Below, in pieces: positions 10,021 to 44,623 of a DNA stretch of 51,929 bases. Within the stretch, counting starts at the first letter, position 1; each line of letters starts with the position of its first letter. The DNA is from Synergistetes bacterium HGW-Synergistetes-1 (GTDB lineage: Bacteria; Synergistota; Synergistia; Synergistales; Synergistaceae), in contig PGXO01000012.1 in assembly GCA_002839185.1 (NCBI GenBank), forward strand, positions 1-51,929, given 5' to 3'. The position numbers and the translations under genes are program-made. The notes beneath the pieces are model-generated. The model worked only from the letters and a program-made list of their open reading frames with translations, made no database searches and was not told the origin of the DNA.

Positions 10021-11916
10021 TTACTCTTCCTCGTCAGATTCCACCACTCCGGCTCTAGCTCTTGCTTTTTTTCGTTCATCCGAGTTGAGGATCATCTTAC
10101 GGATCCTCACGTTGAGGGGCGTAACTTCGACAAGCTCGTCATCGCTTATCCATTCAAGCGCTGTATCTATTGTCATTATTCTCGGGACATCAAGGACCGT
10201 TATCATATCTTTCGTAGCTGATCTGTGGTTGGTCTGCTGTTTTCTCTTACTTGGGTTGCAGGGCATGTCCTTGTTTCTCGAGCTCTCTCCTACGACCTGT
10301 CCGTTATAAACAGGCTCTCCGGGCTTAACGAAAAGCGTTCCGCGTTCCTGCAGATTATCGAGGGCGTAGCTCGTAGTCGTCCCGCTGTCCATGCTCACAA
10401 GGGAGCCTCTGCTTCTTGATGCTATGTCTCCTACCCATTCGCCGTAACCAACGAATCTTGAAGCCAGTATCCCGAGGCCTCTTGTATCTGTAAGAAACTC
10501 TCCTCTGTAGCCTATAAGACCTCTTGTCGGTATCCGGAAAGAAAGCCGGAGCACTCCGGTGCCGCCGTTTTCCATGTTCTTCAGCTCACCTTTGCGCTGA
10601 GCCAGTTTCTGTATCACGACGCCCTGATATTCCTCCGGAACGTCTACGATGACTTCCTCCATTGGTTCCAGCATTTTGCCTCTGGCATCGTGCTGGACTA
10701 TGACTTCAGGTCTTGATACACATATTTCAGAACCTTCCCTGCGCATCTCCTCGATCAGAATGCCAAGATGAAGTTCACCTCTGCCTGAGACCTTAACTCC
10801 ATCGGGACGGCCGATATCATCCATGCGGAGCGCAGGATCTGTTTTTGTCTCACGTTCAATTCTGGCCTTTAGCTGCCTCAGGGTTATAGCGTTTCCGTCC
10901 TGACCGGCAAATGGGCTCGTGTTGACAAGGAAGAACATTGAAACTGTAGGTTCTTCAATATCCAGCGGGTGCATCACATGTCCGGAAAGTTCAGGCGAGT
11001 TGATCGTGTCACCGAGGTCTATATTCTCCGGTCCTGTAAACCAAACAATATCCCCGGCTCCGACAGCATCAACTTCTGTCCTGATAAGGCCGTTGGTCAC
11101 ATAAAGGTGGGTACAGGATGAAGTATCAGTAGAAACTATCTCCCAATCGGTTTGATCGTAATCTTTCCATCTTGTATGTGTCCTGACAATTTTGTCTCCC
11201 CTATGCAGAGTGCCCTGAAGGATCCTTCCGCACCCTATCCTTCCAAGATATTCGCTCCATGAAAGAGTGCATATTTGCATGAGGAAGGGCTTGTCCATCT
11301 CAGCCTGGGGCGCTGGGACTTTATCTATTATTGTTCTGAAAAGGTCGTCCATTCCAGCCTTGGTGTTATCTTCCCTTTTGTCGAGATCGTCAACGAACCA
11401 GCTCTGAAGACCTGAGCCATAGAGGACCGCAAAATCGCACTGTTCCTCCGTTGCTCCAAGTTCTATAAAAAGATCGAAAGTTTTATCAAGAGCGCCGTTT
11501 GGATCTGCATTCGGTCTGTCTACCTTATTTACGATCACGATGGGATTTAGTCCCAGTCTGAGAGCTCTCATGAGAACATATCTTGTTTGGGGCATCGGTC
11601 CCTCGTTCGCGTCCACAAGGAGGAGAACAGAATCTACCATTGAAAGGACTCTTTCAACCTCCCCAGAAAAATCCGCATGCCCGGGAGTATCAACAATGTT
11701 TATCTTGTAGCCGCCCCATTCGACTGTGCAGTGCTTGGCCTTTATAGTTATGCCCCGCTCGCGCTCAAGCGTTCCCGCATCCATGACACGTTCTTCCACT
11801 ACCTGATTATCCCTGAAAAGCCTCGCCGATTTAAATATACCGTCGATAAGGGTGGTCTTGCCATGGTCGATATGGGCTATAATGGCTATGTTTCTGATCT
11901 TTGATGAGTCCTGCAT
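10021..11916 (-). CDS. typA: Ribosome-associated GTPase TypA/BipA
   Basis: Translational GTPase related to EF-G, used in ribosome assembly and stress adaptation. G motifs: [10 protein letters not shown] (G1), ERERGITI (G2), DTPGHADF (G3), NKVDRPNA (G4). Domains II, III, V and the C-terminal TypA domain follow. The longest frame opens at 11970, but no ribosome site precedes that codon. I chose the ATG at 11916 (protein MQDSSKIRN..., 631 aa), which has AAGGGA about 9 nt upstream and matches the family's usual N-terminus. The gene is transcribed from a strong promoter at 12003-12032. Confidence 0.95.
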
Positions 11917-37893: not shown

Positions 37894-38867
37894 TGATCCC
37901 TGCCTCCTACGCGCACCCTCGGATCGACCAGGCCGTATACAACATCCGCGAGCAGGTTTGATATTACCGTTATCAGGGCCAGCATGTAGAATGCAGCACC
38001 TGCGGAAGGATAATCATGGCCTGAGACTGCTTCAAGCAGGAATGTCCCTACCCCGTGCAGTGAAAAGACCGATTCTGTGATCACAGCACCTGATACAAGT
38101 CCGGGTACTGACATGAGCAGGATAGTAAGTATCGGCGGAAGTATCGTCCGGAAGGCATGTCCGTAGACCACTCGGTTTTCCGAAAGCCCCCTTGCCCTCG
38201 CCATCAGGACAAAGTCTTCCCCCAGTGCCTTCACCATCAGGTTGCGAACATACAGTGCCCACCCGCCGAATCCCATAAGTGTGAGGGAGAGGACAGGCAA
38301 TGCCATGTGCCAAAGATAGTCCAGTGTGATCGAAACGGCTCCGGTCGGCTGAGGGATCGAGACACTTCCTCTCAGCGGGAATATCGGGAATGTCCGTGCA
38401 AGAAGCATGATAAGGACAAGCTGCACAAAGAATCCGGGAAATGACGCTGTGACTGCGCCTGCCCTTAAAACTATCCGCTCAGCGAGTTTTCCTCTGTTCA
38501 ATGCGGCCTTGATCCCAAGCCATATACCTAAAACCGAGGATAGGAACATTGAAGTCGCCATGAGGAACAATGTTCCGGGCAAACGGGAGATAAGTTCGTC
38601 CCATACCGGTTTCCTGCTGAGGAAAGAGAGTCCGAAGCTGAATGTGAGCATCTGCTTGATGTAAATAAAAAACTGTTCCGGAAGCGGCTTGTCCAGGCCG
38701 TATAGTTCCCTCAGCCTGTCCTTTGCCTCAGGAGAAAAATTGGGGTCGATGATAGTGCTTACCGCGTCACCGGGCATTATCCTGAAGAGGATGAAGTTCA
38801 GTACCAATACAGCGGCCAAGACCCCTATCGATGATAATAACCTGCCCCAGAACCATCTGTTCTTCAT
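37890..38867 (-). CDS. ABC transporter permease (OppB/NikB-like)
   Basis: 325 aa with six membrane helices. TM1 with the N-terminal FILFRIMPGDAVS motif, the RELYGLDKPLPEQF loop common to OppB-type proteins, and the EAA loop ARGLSENRVVYGHAFRTILPPIL are present. Overlaps 4 bp with both neighbours. Confidence 0.93.
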   Translation of the reverse strand: MKNRWFWGRLLSSIGVLAAVLVLNFILFRIMPGDAVSTIIDPNFSPEAKDRLRELYGLDKPLPEQFFIYIKQMLTFSFGLSFLSRKPVWDELISRLPGTLFLMATSMFLSSVLGIWLGIKAALNRGKLAERIVLRAGAVTASFPGFFVQLVLIMLLARTFPIFPLRGSVSIPQPTGAVSITLDYLWHMALPVLSLTLMGFGGWALYVRNLMVKALGEDFVLMARARGLSENRVVYGHAFRTILPPILTILLMSVPGLVSGAVITESVFSLHGVGTFLLEAVSGHDYPSAGAAFYMLALITVISNLLADVVYGLVDPRVRVGGRDQ

Positions 38868-40567
38868 TCGGTCCTCACATTTTTCTTTTCGAGCATACGA
38901 TAGTGATTATTTCTTTTCATCATTACAAACTCACCCGGCCTGTATTCATCAAGCATGAACGGGCCGGCACCCACAAGACCATAGGGACCGAACTTGCCTT
39001 TTGGGTCTATCGGGTTCCAGTTCTGCCAGTCGTTTACCTTTTGCAGCACCTTTGCCGGCATGCACGGAAGTCCCCCGATGTTGTCGAGGTACCAGTAACT
39101 CGTTCCATCCATGTCCACAGTAAGCTGGGTGCTGTCTGTCACCCTCACGGAACTGATGTTTTTGACAGAGTCAAAAAATCTGGGGATACTGTTTTTTTTG
39201 AGAAAATCTAAGGTAGCTTTTACATCTCCTGCAGTGAGAGGGCTTCCGTCACTCCATTTGAGGCCTTTTCGGAGCCTGAAAGTCAGCCTTGTATGTTCCT
39301 TCCCGTCATTTGTTACAGTTTCAACAGACCAGGACTCCGCGAGTGAAGGCATATCGTCAAGCGTGAAAGGATCCGTGCCGATCAGGCTTTCGTATATAAG
39401 GCCGAGGATCTGCCAGGAATATGCGCTGCTTGCCACAAAAGGATTCAGGTTCCGCGGCTCTTCAGCAAGGACCATATTGAGTGGCCGCTCTTTACCGTCC
39501 GCAGGCTCCGCCATGATGAGCGTCCACATATTATCCGCCGTCATTTTTTCGTTGGAAAAAACATTTTTCCATTTTTTTGAGACCGCTGAAACAGAAAATC
39601 TGCTGTAAACAGGGATGGAGGGCATAAGTTCAGCCAGAAGCAGTTGTGATTTTTTCGACGCAGTTTCTGCATCTGCTCTGTTTTTTGCGTATCTCAGCCT
39701 CAAAAGGACATCGTCAAGGGCCGGGTCATGGGTCGACGTCATGTTGTAGCCGCCGGGCATGTCCATTGAGCTGTGATAGAAGGAGTAGAGAGAATCAGGG
39801 TTCTTCCCCATGCTCCATGCGATGACGCCAAGGGAATATTCTTTTCTGTCAAGTTTACCTATCATTGCAGAGAAATCCATCGGCTCGACATCAACAGGAA
39901 AACCGACTGACCTCAGAGAATCAGCTATCTGTTCTGCAAGCTCCGCTGTTGTAGGCGCTACCCGTGCAAGGGGCGTCAGAAGCTTCATTTTACCCACAGG
40001 AGTTCCGTCAGGATATATCAGGCCGCCTGTAATGCTCCATTTGTATCCTTTTGCGCTGAGACGTTTTTTTGCAGATGCCTTGTCATAAATGTTCTTTGTG
40101 CTTTCCGGCAGGGACCATGGTGATACCGGAGGCAGCCAGCTGTTTATCGGTTCGCAGTATCCGGAGTATATGGTACGCACCATATTGTTCCTGTCTATTG
40201 CTTCTGCCGCGGCATGCCTTACTTCAGGGTCATCCCATGGTCTGCTCTTATTGTTGAGCAGCAGGAAAAATGCGTGGAATCCCCTGGCAAGCGACATTGA
40301 AAGCCCCGGATCCCTGCTGAGCCTGTCAATATCTGAAGGTCGGCTGATGTCACTTACAATATCAAGTTCTCCTTTTTCAGCAGCCAGGACCTGGGAGTCG
40401 GCATTTGTGATAATTACCATGCACAGTTTTTCTATCCGCGGACCGTATACCTTCTCCGGATCAAACCTTTCACCTGCTGAGGCAGTAGTTGAATTCAGAA
40501 CTGTGATCAAAAAGAAACAGGGAAGGATACAGAACAGCCTGGTGAAACTTTTTTGCATTTGGCTCAT
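38864..40567 (-). CDS. Family-5 solute-binding protein with circularly permuted halves
   Basis: 567 aa, exported (signal peptide about 1-32). It is clearly related to DppA/OppA-type binding proteins (SBP_bac_5), but the order is swapped. Residues 41-350 correspond to the second half of normal family members: the LAAEKGELDIV strand, WDDPEVRHAAAEAIDRNNMV, PVSPW, and the final WTL of canonical proteins. Residues 361-567 correspond to the normal first half: PLNMVLAEEPRNLNPF, IYESLIG, PSLAESWSVE, LRKGLKWSDGSPLTAGDV, GAGPFMLDEYRPGEFVMMKRNNHY. A short linker (351-360) joins the old C-terminus to the old N-terminus, and the new ends fall between the old halves. Length and operon context are normal, so this appears to be a working protein. 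Its start overlaps the LacI-like gene by 4 bp. Confidence 0.88.
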   Translation of the reverse strand: MSQMQKSFTRLFCILPCFFLITVLNSTTASAGERFDPEKVYGPRIEKLCMVIITNADSQVLAAEKGELDIVSDISRPSDIDRLSRDPGLSMSLARGFHAFFLLLNNKSRPWDDPEVRHAAAEAIDRNNMVRTIYSGYCEPINSWLPPVSPWSLPESTKNIYDKASAKKRLSAKGYKWSITGGLIYPDGTPVGKMKLLTPLARVAPTTAELAEQIADSLRSVGFPVDVEPMDFSAMIGKLDRKEYSLGVIAWSMGKNPDSLYSFYHSSMDMPGGYNMTSTHDPALDDVLLRLRYAKNRADAETASKKSQLLLAELMPSIPVYSRFSVSAVSKKWKNVFSNEKMTADNMWTLIMAEPADGKERPLNMVLAEEPRNLNPFVASSAYSWQILGLIYESLIGTDPFTLDDMPSLAESWSVETVTNDGKEHTRLTFRLRKGLKWSDGSPLTAGDVKATLDFLKKNSIPRFFDSVKNISSVRVTDSTQLTVDMDGTSYWYLDNIGGLPCMPAKVLQKVNDWQNWNPIDPKGKFGPYGLVGAGPFMLDEYRPGEFVMMKRNNHYRMLEKKNVRTE

Positions 40568-41331: not shown

Positions 41332-42264
41332 TTAACCTGCGCACTTTTTCAGAAGCCTCTCCCATTCCCTGTCGACATCAGCCTGGCCCTGTGCAACAAG
41401 GTCCATCCTCTCCCTGTCCTTTTTGAAAAGGTGGGAGTAACGTCCCTGCGCCCTGAGGAAATCTTCCAGAGGGACCGGGGTTTTGGGTTTATATGAGAGG
41501 ACGTGTTTTCCTTCTATCACTTCATATACGGGCCAGAAACGGCTGTCAGCAGCTAGCTTACAGACTTTCATCTGGTCCCCGGAATCAATTTTCCAGAAGA
41601 GCGGACAGGGGACAAGTACATTTACAAATGCCGGACCCGGCGTCTCGACAGCCCTTTTGACCTTGGCGATAAGGTCCATCGGGTCATGGAGCGTTGTCTG
41701 GGCAACATATGGAATATCATGCGCGGCGACTATCTCCGTAAGGTTTTTGGCCCTCTGGAGTTTTCCGGGTATCACGCTTCCTGCAGGCGATGTCGTTGCA
41801 TTCGCGCTGATGGGTGTGGCACTGCTTCTCTGTGCGCCGGTATTCATGTAGCCCTGGTTGTTATAGCAGATATATGTAAAATCATGCCCTCTTTCAAGTG
41901 CTCCGGAAAGAGACTGGAGCCCTATGTCATAGGTACCTCCGTCGCCGCCAAACGCAACAAACTTTATCTTCTCCCTGACAAGACCTTTTCTGCTCAAAAC
42001 CCTGTGGGCAGCCTCGACTCCTGATACTCCCGCACCGGCGTTTTCAAATGCCACATGCATGAATGGGACTCTCCATGCACTGTAAGGGTAAACCGTAGTT
42101 GAGACTTCAAGGCACCCCGTAGCACCTACGACTACGACCGGGTCTTCGACAGCCATCAATGCCTGTCTCACCGCCGTAGGCGCCCCGCATCCGGGACACA
42201 TCCTGTGTCCTTCCGTAAGTGGATTCTGTTTTTTTGTCAGTTCTTTAAGGTTAATTCCCGCCAT
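41332..42264 (-). CDS. 2-oxoacid:ferredoxin oxidoreductase, beta subunit
   Basis: About 310 aa thiamine-diphosphate-binding subunit of the pyruvate/2-oxoisovalerate:ferredoxin oxidoreductase family. Cluster cysteines occur in HRMCPGCGAP and GATGCLEVS, and the TPP-binding motif is FGGDGGTYDIGLQSLSGALERGHDFTYICYNN. The C-terminal DRERMDLVAQGQADVDREW is typical. The ATG at 42264 (MAGINLKEL) with AAGGA upstream is chosen; it overlaps the alpha gene end. Substrate class (pyruvate, 2-oxobutyrate or branched-chain) cannot be read directly; the operon's isoleucine-type attenuator points to an isoleucine-precursor 2-oxoacid. Confidence 0.93.
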   Translation of the reverse strand: MAGINLKELTKKQNPLTEGHRMCPGCGAPTAVRQALMAVEDPVVVVGATGCLEVSTTVYPYSAWRVPFMHVAFENAGAGVSGVEAAHRVLSRKGLVREKIKFVAFGGDGGTYDIGLQSLSGALERGHDFTYICYNNQGYMNTGAQRSSATPISANATTSPAGSVIPGKLQRAKNLTEIVAAHDIPYVAQTTLHDPMDLIAKVKRAVETPGPAFVNVLVPCPLFWKIDSGDQMKVCKLAADSRFWPVYEVIEGKHVLSYKPKTPVPLEDFLRAQGRYSHLFKKDRERMDLVAQGQADVDREWERLLKKCAG

Positions 42265-43447
42265 TTTCTTCATCCTTTTCAAGCAGACCTATATACCTTG
42301 CAGTATCGCTGTAGTCATTTTCCATAAGCCCTGAAAAAACTTTTTCGGCATCTCTGGGGTAGAGATCCCTGCCTCCAAGTCCGAACAGGTACTCCTGCAG
42401 CGGCACCTTTTCACTGAGTCCGTACAGTGCGGACTTTACCTCTGCGGCCAGCGGGGCAGTTCCTCCGATGCTCGCACTCCTGTCCAGGACAGCAACGCCT
42501 TTTTTGCCCTTCGCAAGTTTTTTAAGGTCTTCTGCGGGGAAGGGCCGGAAAAATCTTACCCTGAGACATCCCGCCTTTACTCCCCTTTCACGCATTTCAT
42601 CAACTACATCTTTTACAACTCCTGTTGCCGAGGACATGATCACGATAAGGTATTCAGCATCTTCAGCGCGGTAGGCATCAAGCGCCGGGTATTCTCTTCC
42701 TGTGTACTCAGCAAGCTCTTTAGTAAGTTCTTTGTAGACCCTCGGGACGTTGTTCATACCCTCTATCTGCGTTCTTTTTATTTCAAAATAATATTCCGAC
42801 ATTGTGAATGAGCCGTAGGAGACCGGGCTGTCTACATCAAGAAGCGGGTATTTCGCTTTCCTCTCACCCACAAACTTTTTGACCGTCTCATCTGAAAGAA
42901 GTTCTACCGGCTCATAGCAGTGACTCGTAATAAAGCCATCCTGACATACAAATACAGGCGTCAGCACATCCTCATGTTCCGCCAGCCTGACGGCAAGAAG
43001 AACAGAATCGTAAACTTCCTGAGCATCTTCGCAGTATATCTGTATCCATCCCGAATCGCGCTCCGGCATGCTGTCTGAATGGTCGCAGTGGATATTTACG
43101 GGCGCGCCAAGGCTCCTGTTTACAAGACCGAATATTATCGGCGCACGGAATGAGGCCGCTATAGGGAATATCTCGTGCATCAGCGCCACGCCGTTCGCGC
43201 TTGACGCTGTCATCACCCTCGCACCTGATACAGATGCCCCTACACATGCTGTGATCGCTGAATGTTCGCTTTCCACAGCGACATACTCCGAATCTACCAT
43301 TCCGTTTGCCACAAACTCCGCAAACTTTACAGGGATCTCCGTTGAGGGAGTGATAGGATATGCGGCCACCACATCGGGGTTGACCTGCCTCATAGCTTCA
43401 GCGAAGGCAAGGTTGCCGGAAGTCATTTCTTTTCTCTTATTTAACAT
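42251..43447 (-). CDS. 2-oxoacid:ferredoxin oxidoreductase, alpha subunit
   Basis: About 398 aa. N-terminal pyrimidine-binding domain with VAAYPITPSTEIP and VESEHSAITACVGASVSGARVMTASSANG, then the C-terminal domain (VLDRSASIGGTAPLAAEVKSALY) common to POR/VOR alpha chains. The DPEV/NIHCDHSDSMPERDSGWIQ region lines the active site. The ATG at 43447 has GGAGAG at good spacing. It overlaps the delta gene stop. Confidence 0.93.
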   Translation of the reverse strand: MLNKRKEMTSGNLAFAEAMRQVNPDVVAAYPITPSTEIPVKFAEFVANGMVDSEYVAVESEHSAITACVGASVSGARVMTASSANGVALMHEIFPIAASFRAPIIFGLVNRSLGAPVNIHCDHSDSMPERDSGWIQIYCEDAQEVYDSVLLAVRLAEHEDVLTPVFVCQDGFITSHCYEPVELLSDETVKKFVGERKAKYPLLDVDSPVSYGSFTMSEYYFEIKRTQIEGMNNVPRVYKELTKELAEYTGREYPALDAYRAEDAEYLIVIMSSATGVVKDVVDEMRERGVKAGCLRVRFFRPFPAEDLKKLAKGKKGVAVLDRSASIGGTAPLAAEVKSALYGLSEKVPLQEYLFGLGGRDLYPRDAEKVFSGLMENDYSDTARYIGLLEKDEENGGN

Positions 43448-43781
43448 GGTCTGCAACTCTCCCCGGATCTTCTCCGTGCTCTCTGTTTTCGTTGTTAAAA
43501 TCTGCTTCCTGGTGCATGGATATCGCGTTTACAGGACAAACCTGCGCACATACACCACATCCCTTGCAAAAGAACATATTGATTCCGCATACACGTCCCT
43601 CTTCATTGGTCTTTATGGAAGAATCCGGGCACTGCAGCCAGCATTTCAGGCAGGATATGCACTTGTTTTGATCAAGCACCGGACGCATGCTCCTCCAAAG
43701 ACCCGTTTCGACATCAAGAGCCGACGCTCCCCATGCAATCGTCGCGGGAGGAACATCCTGCCAGCATTTGGGTTTGCTCAT
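43437..43781 (-). CDS. 2-oxoacid:ferredoxin oxidoreductase, delta subunit (2[4Fe-4S] ferredoxin-like)
   Basis: 114 aa with two [4Fe-4S] motifs, CISCLKCWLQCP and CKGCGVCAQVCP, preceded by a ~35-residue N-terminal extension (GASALDVETGLWRSMRPVLD). It relays electrons from the TPP centre to external ferredoxin. Overlaps the gamma gene as ATGA. Confidence 0.95.
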   Translation of the reverse strand: MSKPKCWQDVPPATIAWGASALDVETGLWRSMRPVLDQNKCISCLKCWLQCPDSSIKTNEEGRVCGINMFFCKGCGVCAQVCPVNAISMHQEADFNNENREHGEDPGRVADHVK

Positions 43782-44362
43782 GCCAATACAGCCTCCTCAC
43801 GGCCGCGAAGGATAGCCCTCCGGTTTGCTTCGAGGACCGGTGCCGAAAGCTGCTTCATTTTCTTTGTAAAGTGATCGGCAAACGTTTCAACCGAGACGTC
43901 TGTGAACAGGTGTGAAAGCGCTCCGAGCAAGGGGGCGTTTGGCCTGTTCTGTCCGAGTTCCTCGAGTGTGATCTTAGTTGCGTCAACTACAAGGACTCTG
44001 GCATCCGCTGAAAGGTTCATCCTGCTGCGGAGCGCCAGGGCGTCCTCCGGTGTGTTGACAACATAAACAGCATCGGACATGCAGCCTTCGCATGGATTTG
44101 AACTGACTACCATGGTCGGGTCAACTATTACAACTATGTTTGGATTTTCTACGCTGCAGCGGCGGCGGATAGGAGTATCCGATACCCTGTTGTAAGCTCT
44201 CATCGGAGCGCCCTGACGTTCTGCACCGTACTCGGGAAATGCCTGGACATGCTTGCCCTCTTCAAAAAGGACCTCGGCAAGTATCGCTGATGCGCTCTTT
44301 GCGCCCTGCCCGCCGCGTCCGTGCCATCTTACTTCAAGTGTCCTCTTATTTCCGTTATCCAT
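43778..44362 (-). CDS. 2-oxoacid:ferredoxin oxidoreductase, gamma subunit
   Basis: About 194 aa, first structural gene of the gamma-delta-alpha-beta operon. Family segments: VRWHGRGGQGAKSASAILAEVLFEEGKHVQAFPEYGAERQGAPMRAYNR and the later RPNAPLLGAL. The ATG at 44362 (MDNGNKRTLEV) has GGAGG 8 nt upstream; a longer frame to 44392 has no ribosome site. The gene begins 61 bp after the leader terminator, so it is expressed only if that terminator is passed. Confidence 0.94.
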   Translation of the reverse strand: MDNGNKRTLEVRWHGRGGQGAKSASAILAEVLFEEGKHVQAFPEYGAERQGAPMRAYNRVSDTPIRRRCSVENPNIVVIVDPTMVVSSNPCEGCMSDAVYVVNTPEDALALRSRMNLSADARVLVVDATKITLEELGQNRPNAPLLGALSHLFTDVSVETFADHFTKKMKQLSAPVLEANRRAILRGREEAVLA

Positions 44363-44422: not shown

Positions 44423-44458
44423 TAAAAAAATGGAGCCCTTCAAAATGAAGGGCTCCAT
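44423..44458 (-). terminator. Attenuator terminator in the leader of the 2-oxoacid oxidoreductase operon
   Basis: A 13-bp perfect stem (44430-44442 and 44446-44458), loop of 3, followed on the minus strand by T7. Its upstream arm contains GGAGCC (44451-44456), which can instead pair with GGCTCC at 44503-44508 inside the leader-peptide gene, as in an antiterminator. Between these lies another 7-bp hairpin spanning the leader stop codon (about 44476-44492). Confidence 0.88.
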
Positions 44459-44480
44459 CCGTTCGCTCGGTAATACAGCG

Positions 44481-44561
44481 CTAAGCGCCGTTCCTGCGAG
44501 GAGGAGCCGCGTTAATAATTATAATAATGATGTTCTGGTCCATCATACTTTTATACGACAT
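44481..44561 (-). CDS. Isoleucine-rich leader peptide (attenuation control)
   Basis: 26 codons, ATG at 44561, TAG at 44483-44481, with GGGAGGAA as ribosome site 5 nt upstream. It begins MSYKSMMDQN, then six consecutive isoleucine codons (ATC ATT ATT ATA ATT ATT), then NAAPPRRNGA. Six codons for one amino acid, a good promoter just upstream and a strong terminator just downstream are the hallmarks of amino-acid attenuation, as in his, trp and ilv leaders. Starvation for Ile-tRNA would stall the ribosome on the run and free the GGCTCC antiterminator segment. Too short for most gene finders. Confidence 0.88.
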   Translation of the reverse strand: MSYKSMMDQNIIIIIINAAPPRRNGA

Positions 44562-44594
44562 CAAACTTCCTCCCTTTCCCGCAGATTGGTGAGC

Positions 44595-44623
44595 ATATTA
44601 ACATCATTTCAAAAACGTGTCAA
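44595..44623 (-). promoter_or_regulatory. Promoter of the leader/2-oxoacid oxidoreductase operon
   Basis: Perfect TTGACA (44618-44623), 17-nt spacer, TAATAT (44595-44600) on the minus strand. The predicted start lies near 44588, about 27 nt before the leader-peptide ATG. Confidence 0.85.

Follow-up and report, generated by a model that had tools for sequence, protein, structure and literature searches.

A conserved isoleucine leader ahead of a 2-oxoacid:ferredoxin oxidoreductase operon in Synergistaceae: a putative attenuator of a candidate 2-oxobutyrate synthase

A leader with a run of isoleucine codons precedes a four-gene operon for a 2-oxoacid:ferredoxin oxidoreductase in Synergistaceae, and the interpretation preferred here, on balance and in the absence of expression or enzyme data, is that an Ile-specific attenuator controls a reductive four-subunit enzyme of isoleucine biosynthesis, most likely a 2-oxobutyrate synthase feeding IlvBNCD. 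That the leader is an Ile-responsive attenuator is hardly in doubt, the direction of the response being inferred from anatomy without expression data; that the oxidoreductase works in Ile biosynthesis is probable, its reductive direction being inferred without enzyme data; and propionyl-CoA is somewhat favoured as the substrate, likewise by inference. The leader, its terminator, the antiterminator complementarity, their conservation and the identity of the target genes rest on sequence comparison, and at that level they are established. The window, by which the whole analysed stretch of 51,929 nucleotides is meant, comes from a 2.17-Mb Synergistaceae genome (G000), to which the catalogue entries Synergistaceae bacterium UBA6101, UBA1037 and UBA1358 are closely related.

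In the window, a translatable leader ORF with its own ribosome site lies behind a promoter and ahead of the operon, with an intrinsic terminator between the leader and the first gene (Table 1). An earlier note on this DNA had described the promoter, the ribosome site, the ORF with its Ile codons between Asn codons, the terminator with its T run and a duplicated GGCTCC segment, and each of these was found where that note had placed it. TTTGACA and the -10 element are kept at the same place in relatives. The GGCTCC within the ORF is complementary to the GGAGCC of the terminator 5′ arm and a second GGCTCC lies in the 3′ arm; the proposal that the first copy competes for the 5′ arm held as regards this pairing and understated its extent, the predicted antiterminator being larger than six pairs and adding a second helix and the stop-codon hairpin. 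The TCCT of segment 2 also pairs with AGGA as a small hairpin. The exact leader arrangement occurs once in the whole genome, and no Rfam family matched in the window at gathering thresholds.

Table 1. Features of the leader, the oxidoreductase operon and the ilv-leu attenuator. Positions are those of the window unless a contig is named; alpha and beta coordinates are those of the ORFs as listed, the true starts being probably internal.
Feature	Position	Strand	Details
Sigma-70-type promoter TTGACA-17-TAATAT	44595..44623	minus	-35 TTGACA 44623-44618, 17-nt spacer, -10 TAATAT 44600-44595, extended -10 TG
Leader ribosome binding site GGGAGGA	44568..44574	minus	predicted also to pair with segment 2
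Leader peptide ORF MSYKSMMDQNIIIIIINAAPPRRNGA, 26 codons + stop	44481..44561	minus	ATG 44561, TAG 44483-44481
Control codons, six consecutive Ile (ATC ATT ATT ATA ATT ATT)	44514..44531	minus	Asn codon on each side
Antiterminator 5′ strand (segment 2) GGCTCC-TC-CTCGC	44496..44508	minus	GGCTCC at 44508-44503, CTCGC at 44500-44496
Hairpin CGGCGC-TTA-GCGCTG holding leader stop codon	44476..44490	minus	conserved in nearly all members, with G-C/G-U changes
Antiterminator 3′ strand (segment 3)	44451..44466	minus	GCGA(A) 44466-44462 and GGAGCC 44456-44451
Intrinsic terminator	44424..44458	minus	13-bp stem 44458-44430, TTT loop, T7 44430-44424
Gamma subunit	43778..44362	minus	TIGR02175 PorC_KorC 174 bits, cut-off 81.1
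Delta subunit, 2x[4Fe-4S] ferredoxin	43437..43781	minus	TIGR02179 PorD_KorD 93.9 bits, cut-off 60.05
Alpha subunit, nearest PorA type	42251..43456	minus	NF040682 481 bits, cut-off 550 (below); best solved relative 9bt4_B
Beta subunit, thiamine diphosphate binding, nearest PorB type	41332..42282	minus	NF008819 331.5 bits, cut-off 405 (below); best solved relative 9bt4_C
ilv-leu attenuator	G000:C2 (L065), about 11137-11315, upstream of ilvN	minus	GC-rich terminator with T run

Where the available DNA reaches far enough upstream, which is so for 27 family sequences, the leader was present every time; the gamma subunit itself was found in 31 of 61 related genomes. Family leaders share a plan in which the N-terminus varies and is followed by a run of five or six Ile codons, the ending (N/S)AAP(P/S)R(R/G)(I/N)G(V/A) and then the terminator, only the C-terminal part and the Ile run of the peptide being conserved. 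Isoleucine occupied 151 of the 152 run codons (the remaining one being Met) with varied third bases (T 79, A 54, C 18), which indicates selection on the amino acid and not on the DNA. In nearly all members the run lies 23 nt from GGCTCC and 48 nt from the stop codon; in two members with a shorter run the distances are 20 and 45 nt. Loss of the run beside a conserved terminator and promoter, the outcome that the earlier note would have taken as refutation, was checked and did not appear, the run being kept through synonymous codons across the family and the N-terminus being free. Upstream of the orthologues in families f7, f8 and f10, which are more distant (58–62% identity), no leader was present.

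Folding of the 172-nt leader, one of the checks suggested at the outset, gave −68 kcal/mol vs −43.3 ± 4.0 kcal/mol for shuffles (z = −6.1), a structure far more stable than shuffled sequence. Every family member was predicted to form an antiterminator (−26 to −34 kcal/mol for the segment from GGCTCC to GGAGCC), built of an outer helix GGCTCC:GG(A/G)GCC, an inner helix CTCGC:GCGAG and a central hairpin with the leader stop codon. Most antiterminator pairs are invariant and covariation was found mainly in the small hairpin, in the terminator, where several pairs changed on both sides among members, and in one inner-helix pair; as the outer helix is nearly invariant, covariation says little about it. 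Specifically, the segment 2 hairpin TCCY/RGGA showed T-A in 18, C-G in 13 and T-G in 3 sequences (counted as sequences, not as independent events) with none broken, which was reached by 0 of 2000 shuffles. The inner pair B5, for which a reading by eye was used and the automated counts for B4 and B5 were left out, changed from C-G to T-A in L014, L015, L023 and L025 and was broken in L053; further exceptions seen by eye were a mismatch in the inner helix of L054 and one at the outermost pair of that helix in the source genome's own genus.

Modelling of the ribosome as a mask on truncated RNA gave mean antiterminator probabilities of 0.95 when the A site held Ile codon 3, 0.45 when it held codon 5, 0.54 with the ribosome at the stop codon and 0.81 for naked RNA. 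The difference between a stall at early Ile codons and a ribosome at the stop codon went in the expected direction on average and in many members, with exceptions, and the naked leader also favoured the antiterminator until the terminator was complete. In silico and at equilibrium, the terminator of the full-length RNA beat the antiterminator nearly always. Since the switch appears only on truncated RNA, and there in part, energetics alone are no proof of switching, and the case for the predicted switch rests on anatomy and comparison instead. Only the modest in-silico switching speaks for the view that there is no attenuator at all, merely a conserved small protein followed by the unrelated terminator of a neighbouring gene. 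This is very hard to reconcile with a peptide whose N-terminus is unconserved and whose Ile run is kept by synonymous codons, with the fixed spacing of run, GGCTCC and stop codon, and with the covarying pairs and an antiterminator in every member.

Under the attenuator model, a ribosome short of Ile-tRNA would stall early in the Ile run, some 23 nt upstream of GGCTCC; segment 2 would then be available for pairing with segment 3, and RNA polymerase would read through. With Ile-tRNA charged, the ribosome would reach the stop codon in the central hairpin, cover segment 2 and break the inner antiterminator helix, whereupon the terminator would form. Leader-peptide attenuation has long been known, and the leader resembles the E. 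coli trp, his, ilvGMEDA and leu and the Corynebacterium ilvBNC attenuators in having a short leader that is translated and holds a run of the regulating amino acid's codons, a segment able to pair with either neighbour and a terminator ahead of the structural genes. Unlike these, the Synergistaceae leader has a ferredoxin-dependent 2-oxoacid oxidoreductase as target, a run of Ile alone and a compact antiterminator around a hairpin holding the stop codon. The attenuator itself is thus of a known kind, and its ferredoxin oxidoreductase target is new as far as the open-licence literature shows: in that literature no Ile leader on a ferredoxin oxidoreductase was found, in line with the earlier note, and no paper joining leader attenuation and 2-oxobutyrate:ferredoxin oxidoreductase.

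The four genes of the operon (minus strand, 44362 to 41332) specify a 2-oxoacid:ferredoxin oxidoreductase, in the order gamma, delta, alpha and beta subunit, and the enzyme's membership of the PorC_KorC/PorD_KorD four-subunit type follows from gamma and delta scoring over curated subfamily cut-offs and from the adjacency of all four genes; no further gene was conserved within the operon among relatives. The enzyme resembles the four-subunit pyruvate:ferredoxin oxidoreductase (PorGDAB; PDB 9bt4) in subunit make-up, in keeping the YPITP and NR motifs of alpha and in having it as best solved match. It differs in its Ile leader, in falling below the pyruvate synthase equivalog cut-offs for alpha, gamma and beta (PorA_Arch 481/550, PorC_Meth_Thtga 178/270 and PRK11865 PorB 331.5/405) and in the motif after NR, which in the orthologues checked, with or without the leader, reads NIHCDHSD (or NINCDHSD) vs NIWNDHQD of 9bt4. 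This motif is a candidate specificity position that may matter for the substrate, an effect without experimental support. Elsewhere in the window (38864-40567, minus strand), a peptide-ABC-transporter substrate-binding protein conserved in congeners appears to be rearranged, its C-terminal half matching the N-terminal part of the profile and its N-terminal half the C-terminal part; the preceding gene is for a LacI-family regulator, only 195 aa long.

Sequence seldom reveals in which direction, or on which substrate, a ferredoxin oxidoreductase works, and these enzymes are reversible; in the present case the regulatory RNA yields a testable prediction of both. A covariance model of the leader (R1), run over 183 genomes of the order, gave strong matches in 28 family genomes, with the gamma subunit downstream in 27 of the 27 family loci fetched, and outside the family in f6 (G041, G058) and f5 (G040 twice, G049, G057, G067). 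The f5 and f6 leaders end in ...AIIIITSAAPPRRTGA or ...QAIIIIANAAPPRGNGA, with three Ile codons kept in G049 and G057, and a pyridoxal-phosphate enzyme follows 45–66 nt downstream, its nearest relatives being of the serine dehydratase/threonine deaminase kind (PDB 2rkb, 4h27). The exception is the second G040 copy, which reads AMIII and has a membrane-protein gene downstream instead of the dehydratase. The gamma subunit had no match at E <= 1e-20 in the f5 and f6 genomes of the 61-genome set (G067 being outside the set). To judge from these gene neighbourhoods, a single type of Ile leader stands before two enzymes that are unrelated, each in principle able to give 2-oxobutyrate. In the second G040 copy (L161, G040:C70:97398-97506), GAG replaces the TAG stop and the ORF runs on, and the small membrane protein downstream is by eye AzlC-like, a branched-chain amino acid exporter.

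The oxidoreductase operon is regarded as biosynthetic because of its on-when-Ile-is-short logic and because of the dehydratase parallel. The reductive, Ile-supplying role inferred in the earlier note gains independent support from the occurrence of the same leader before a Ser/Thr-dehydratase-type gene in two other families and from a separate Leu/Val leader on ilv-leu. Alternatively, isoleucine could serve as a general signal of amino-acid supply, the oxidoreductase being a catabolic or energy enzyme (e.g. for pyruvate oxidation) turned on when peptides run out. Synergistaceae are amino-acid fermenters, the closest match among solved structures is a pyruvate:ferredoxin oxidoreductase, and the dehydratase behind the same leader is nearest to the SDS type of serine dehydratase/threonine deaminase, known from catabolism. 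This alternative is nevertheless improbable, as a one-piece pyruvate oxidoreductase is already present in most relatives, four congeners included, and leaders of the clade correspond to what the downstream genes make or import (Leu/Val before ilv-leu, Met before metN). The one-piece enzyme was not found in G000, probably owing to a contig end; the gene that adjoins it in the congener G001 sits at base 63 of contig C11.

The ilv-leu operon of the source genome contains all genes in the order ilvN-ilvC-leuA-leuC-leuD-leuB-ilvB-ilvD, behind a Leu- and Val-rich leader MRIDSLIRDIFSLVLVLVLLISSGSPEVADA (ending ...FSLVLVLVLLISSGSPEVADA) with its own terminator; with this separate leader, Val/Leu supply and the Ile-specific step are regulated apart. 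Methylmalonyl-CoA mutase, a source of propionyl-CoA, was found in the source genome and most relatives. Citramalate synthase was not found over its cut-off in any of 61 genomes, and the citramalate route was discarded, the only close homologue in G000 being a true 2-isopropylmalate synthase. No IlvA over cut-off was found in the source genome's own genus; two short Thr-dehydratase-like proteins of the source genome, which reach none of the cut-offs, may deaminate threonine, and one of them sits in an apparent amino-acid catabolic cluster. Of the genera with the oxidoreductase, about half (G010, G014, G018, G019, G021, G022, G025-G027, G032, G035, G036) also encode a long IlvA-type protein, one example of which was classified by family model (G014, TIGR02079 623 bits, cut-off 440.55), so the oxidoreductase is not the sole source of 2-oxobutyrate there. 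Strict mutual exclusion of IlvA and oxidoreductase was therefore rejected, and an Ile leader ahead of the long IlvA was looked for upstream in relatives and not found.

The chief weakness of the proposal lies in these genera, where the oxidoreductase would be an extra source of 2-oxobutyrate or would serve 2-methylbutyryl-CoA. In the latter case the attenuator would be the same, the enzyme would reductively carboxylate 2-methylbutyryl-CoA to 3-methyl-2-oxopentanoate and Ile would be rebuilt from an environmental branched acid. This would explain why IlvA is kept in about half of the genera, and the clade seems to use acid-to-CoA routes, Phe/Tyr leaders standing before arylacetate-CoA-ligase-like genes. 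It remains an unlikely substrate, given that the proteins are nearest to pyruvate-type enzymes and not to VOR, that a separate VorB-type alpha subunit over its cut-off is encoded in the genome, that the operon is without an acyl-CoA ligase, and that a branched-acid enzyme would, by inference, be expected for Val and Leu too, a leader reading Ile only being at odds with this. What favours propionyl-CoA is the likeness of the proteins to pyruvate enzymes, an intact IlvBNCD able to complete the pathway, the restriction of the leader to Ile, the presence of methylmalonyl-CoA mutase and a VOR encoded elsewhere; the reaction would be propionyl-CoA + CO2 + reduced ferredoxin -> 2-oxobutyrate + CoA, with the product passing to IlvBNCD. 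Between the two substrates that had been suggested beforehand, the evidence leans to propionyl-CoA over 2-methylbutyryl-CoA and does not settle the choice.

Several anaerobes have been reported to form 2-oxobutyrate from propionate by means of a ferredoxin enzyme (Buchanan 1969; Monticello 1984; Eikmanns 1983, as cited in PMC7476758), and the same 2020 paper considers that some earlier 2-oxobutyrate synthase cases could be a side activity of pyruvate formate-lyase (PMC7476758). The enzyme proposed here is like 2-oxobutyrate synthase (2-ketobutyrate:ferredoxin oxidoreductase, EC 1.2.7.2) in its proposed reaction and role, from propionate to Ile. Unlike the earlier reports, it has a defined gene set with Ile-specific regulation, its activity being inferred from regulation and genome context. 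Candidate genes are thereby named for an activity whose attribution a 2020 paper called into question (PMC7476758) and whose genes had not been settled in the open-licence literature. The proposal also suggests that fermenters best known for amino-acid breakdown may fix CO2 to make amino acids, and the leader model is usable for annotating Synergistota genes.

Weaker R1 matches were other leaders of the same build, with Phe, Tyr, Met or Leu/Val/Ile codons. The Leu/Val/Ile leaders lie before ilv or leu genes and Phe runs lie before phenylacetate-CoA-ligase-like genes in G045, G054, G040 and G181, a classification that is below the PaaK cut-off. The Phe-rich leaders suggest that Phe is made from phenylacetate, and the Phe and Tyr leaders before ligase-like genes hint at attenuated arylacetate-to-Phe/Tyr routes in a wider "reverse" amino-acid programme. 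It has about an even chance of being true that Synergistota place attenuators on reverse routes (acyl-CoA reductive carboxylation), with Ile on a dedicated 2-oxobutyrate synthase and Phe/Tyr on arylacetate-CoA ligases starting Phe/Tyr synthesis, one Ile leader type acting on two non-homologous enzymes that yield the same precursor. If so, the leader's amino acid would read out the biosynthetic direction and product of enzymes usually annotated as catabolic.

Individual loci among these related leaders varied in the genes downstream. L174, L185, L172 and L164 (families f10 and f5) are Phe-rich, e.g. SFFFFFTGAGPVRRTGAS, directly ahead of phenylacetate-CoA-ligase-like genes. The source genome itself carries, at G000:C8:26260-26397 on the minus strand (L189), a leader MTHINYSITSCGNVTQFSFIGAGPLHGICARAA (...QFSFIGAGPLHGICARAA) and terminator followed by two such ligase-like genes, with a counterpart leader in the congener G001 (L192). 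Tyr-rich leaders, VAVYSYYYPHTDPPRGIGA and VAVYSYAHTDPPRGIGV, were found at L165 (G020:C18) and L187 (G016:C97) before paralogous ligase-like genes, perhaps for 4-hydroxyphenylacetate. Met-rich leaders, NSMMMCMCGGPPG and SMMMCMTCGSSPG, occur at L181 (G074:C1:433752), where a metN-type ABC transporter follows, and at L186 (G137:C26). In family f3, related leaders or terminators (L166, L170, L182) lie ahead of a gene for a YkvI-like membrane protein.
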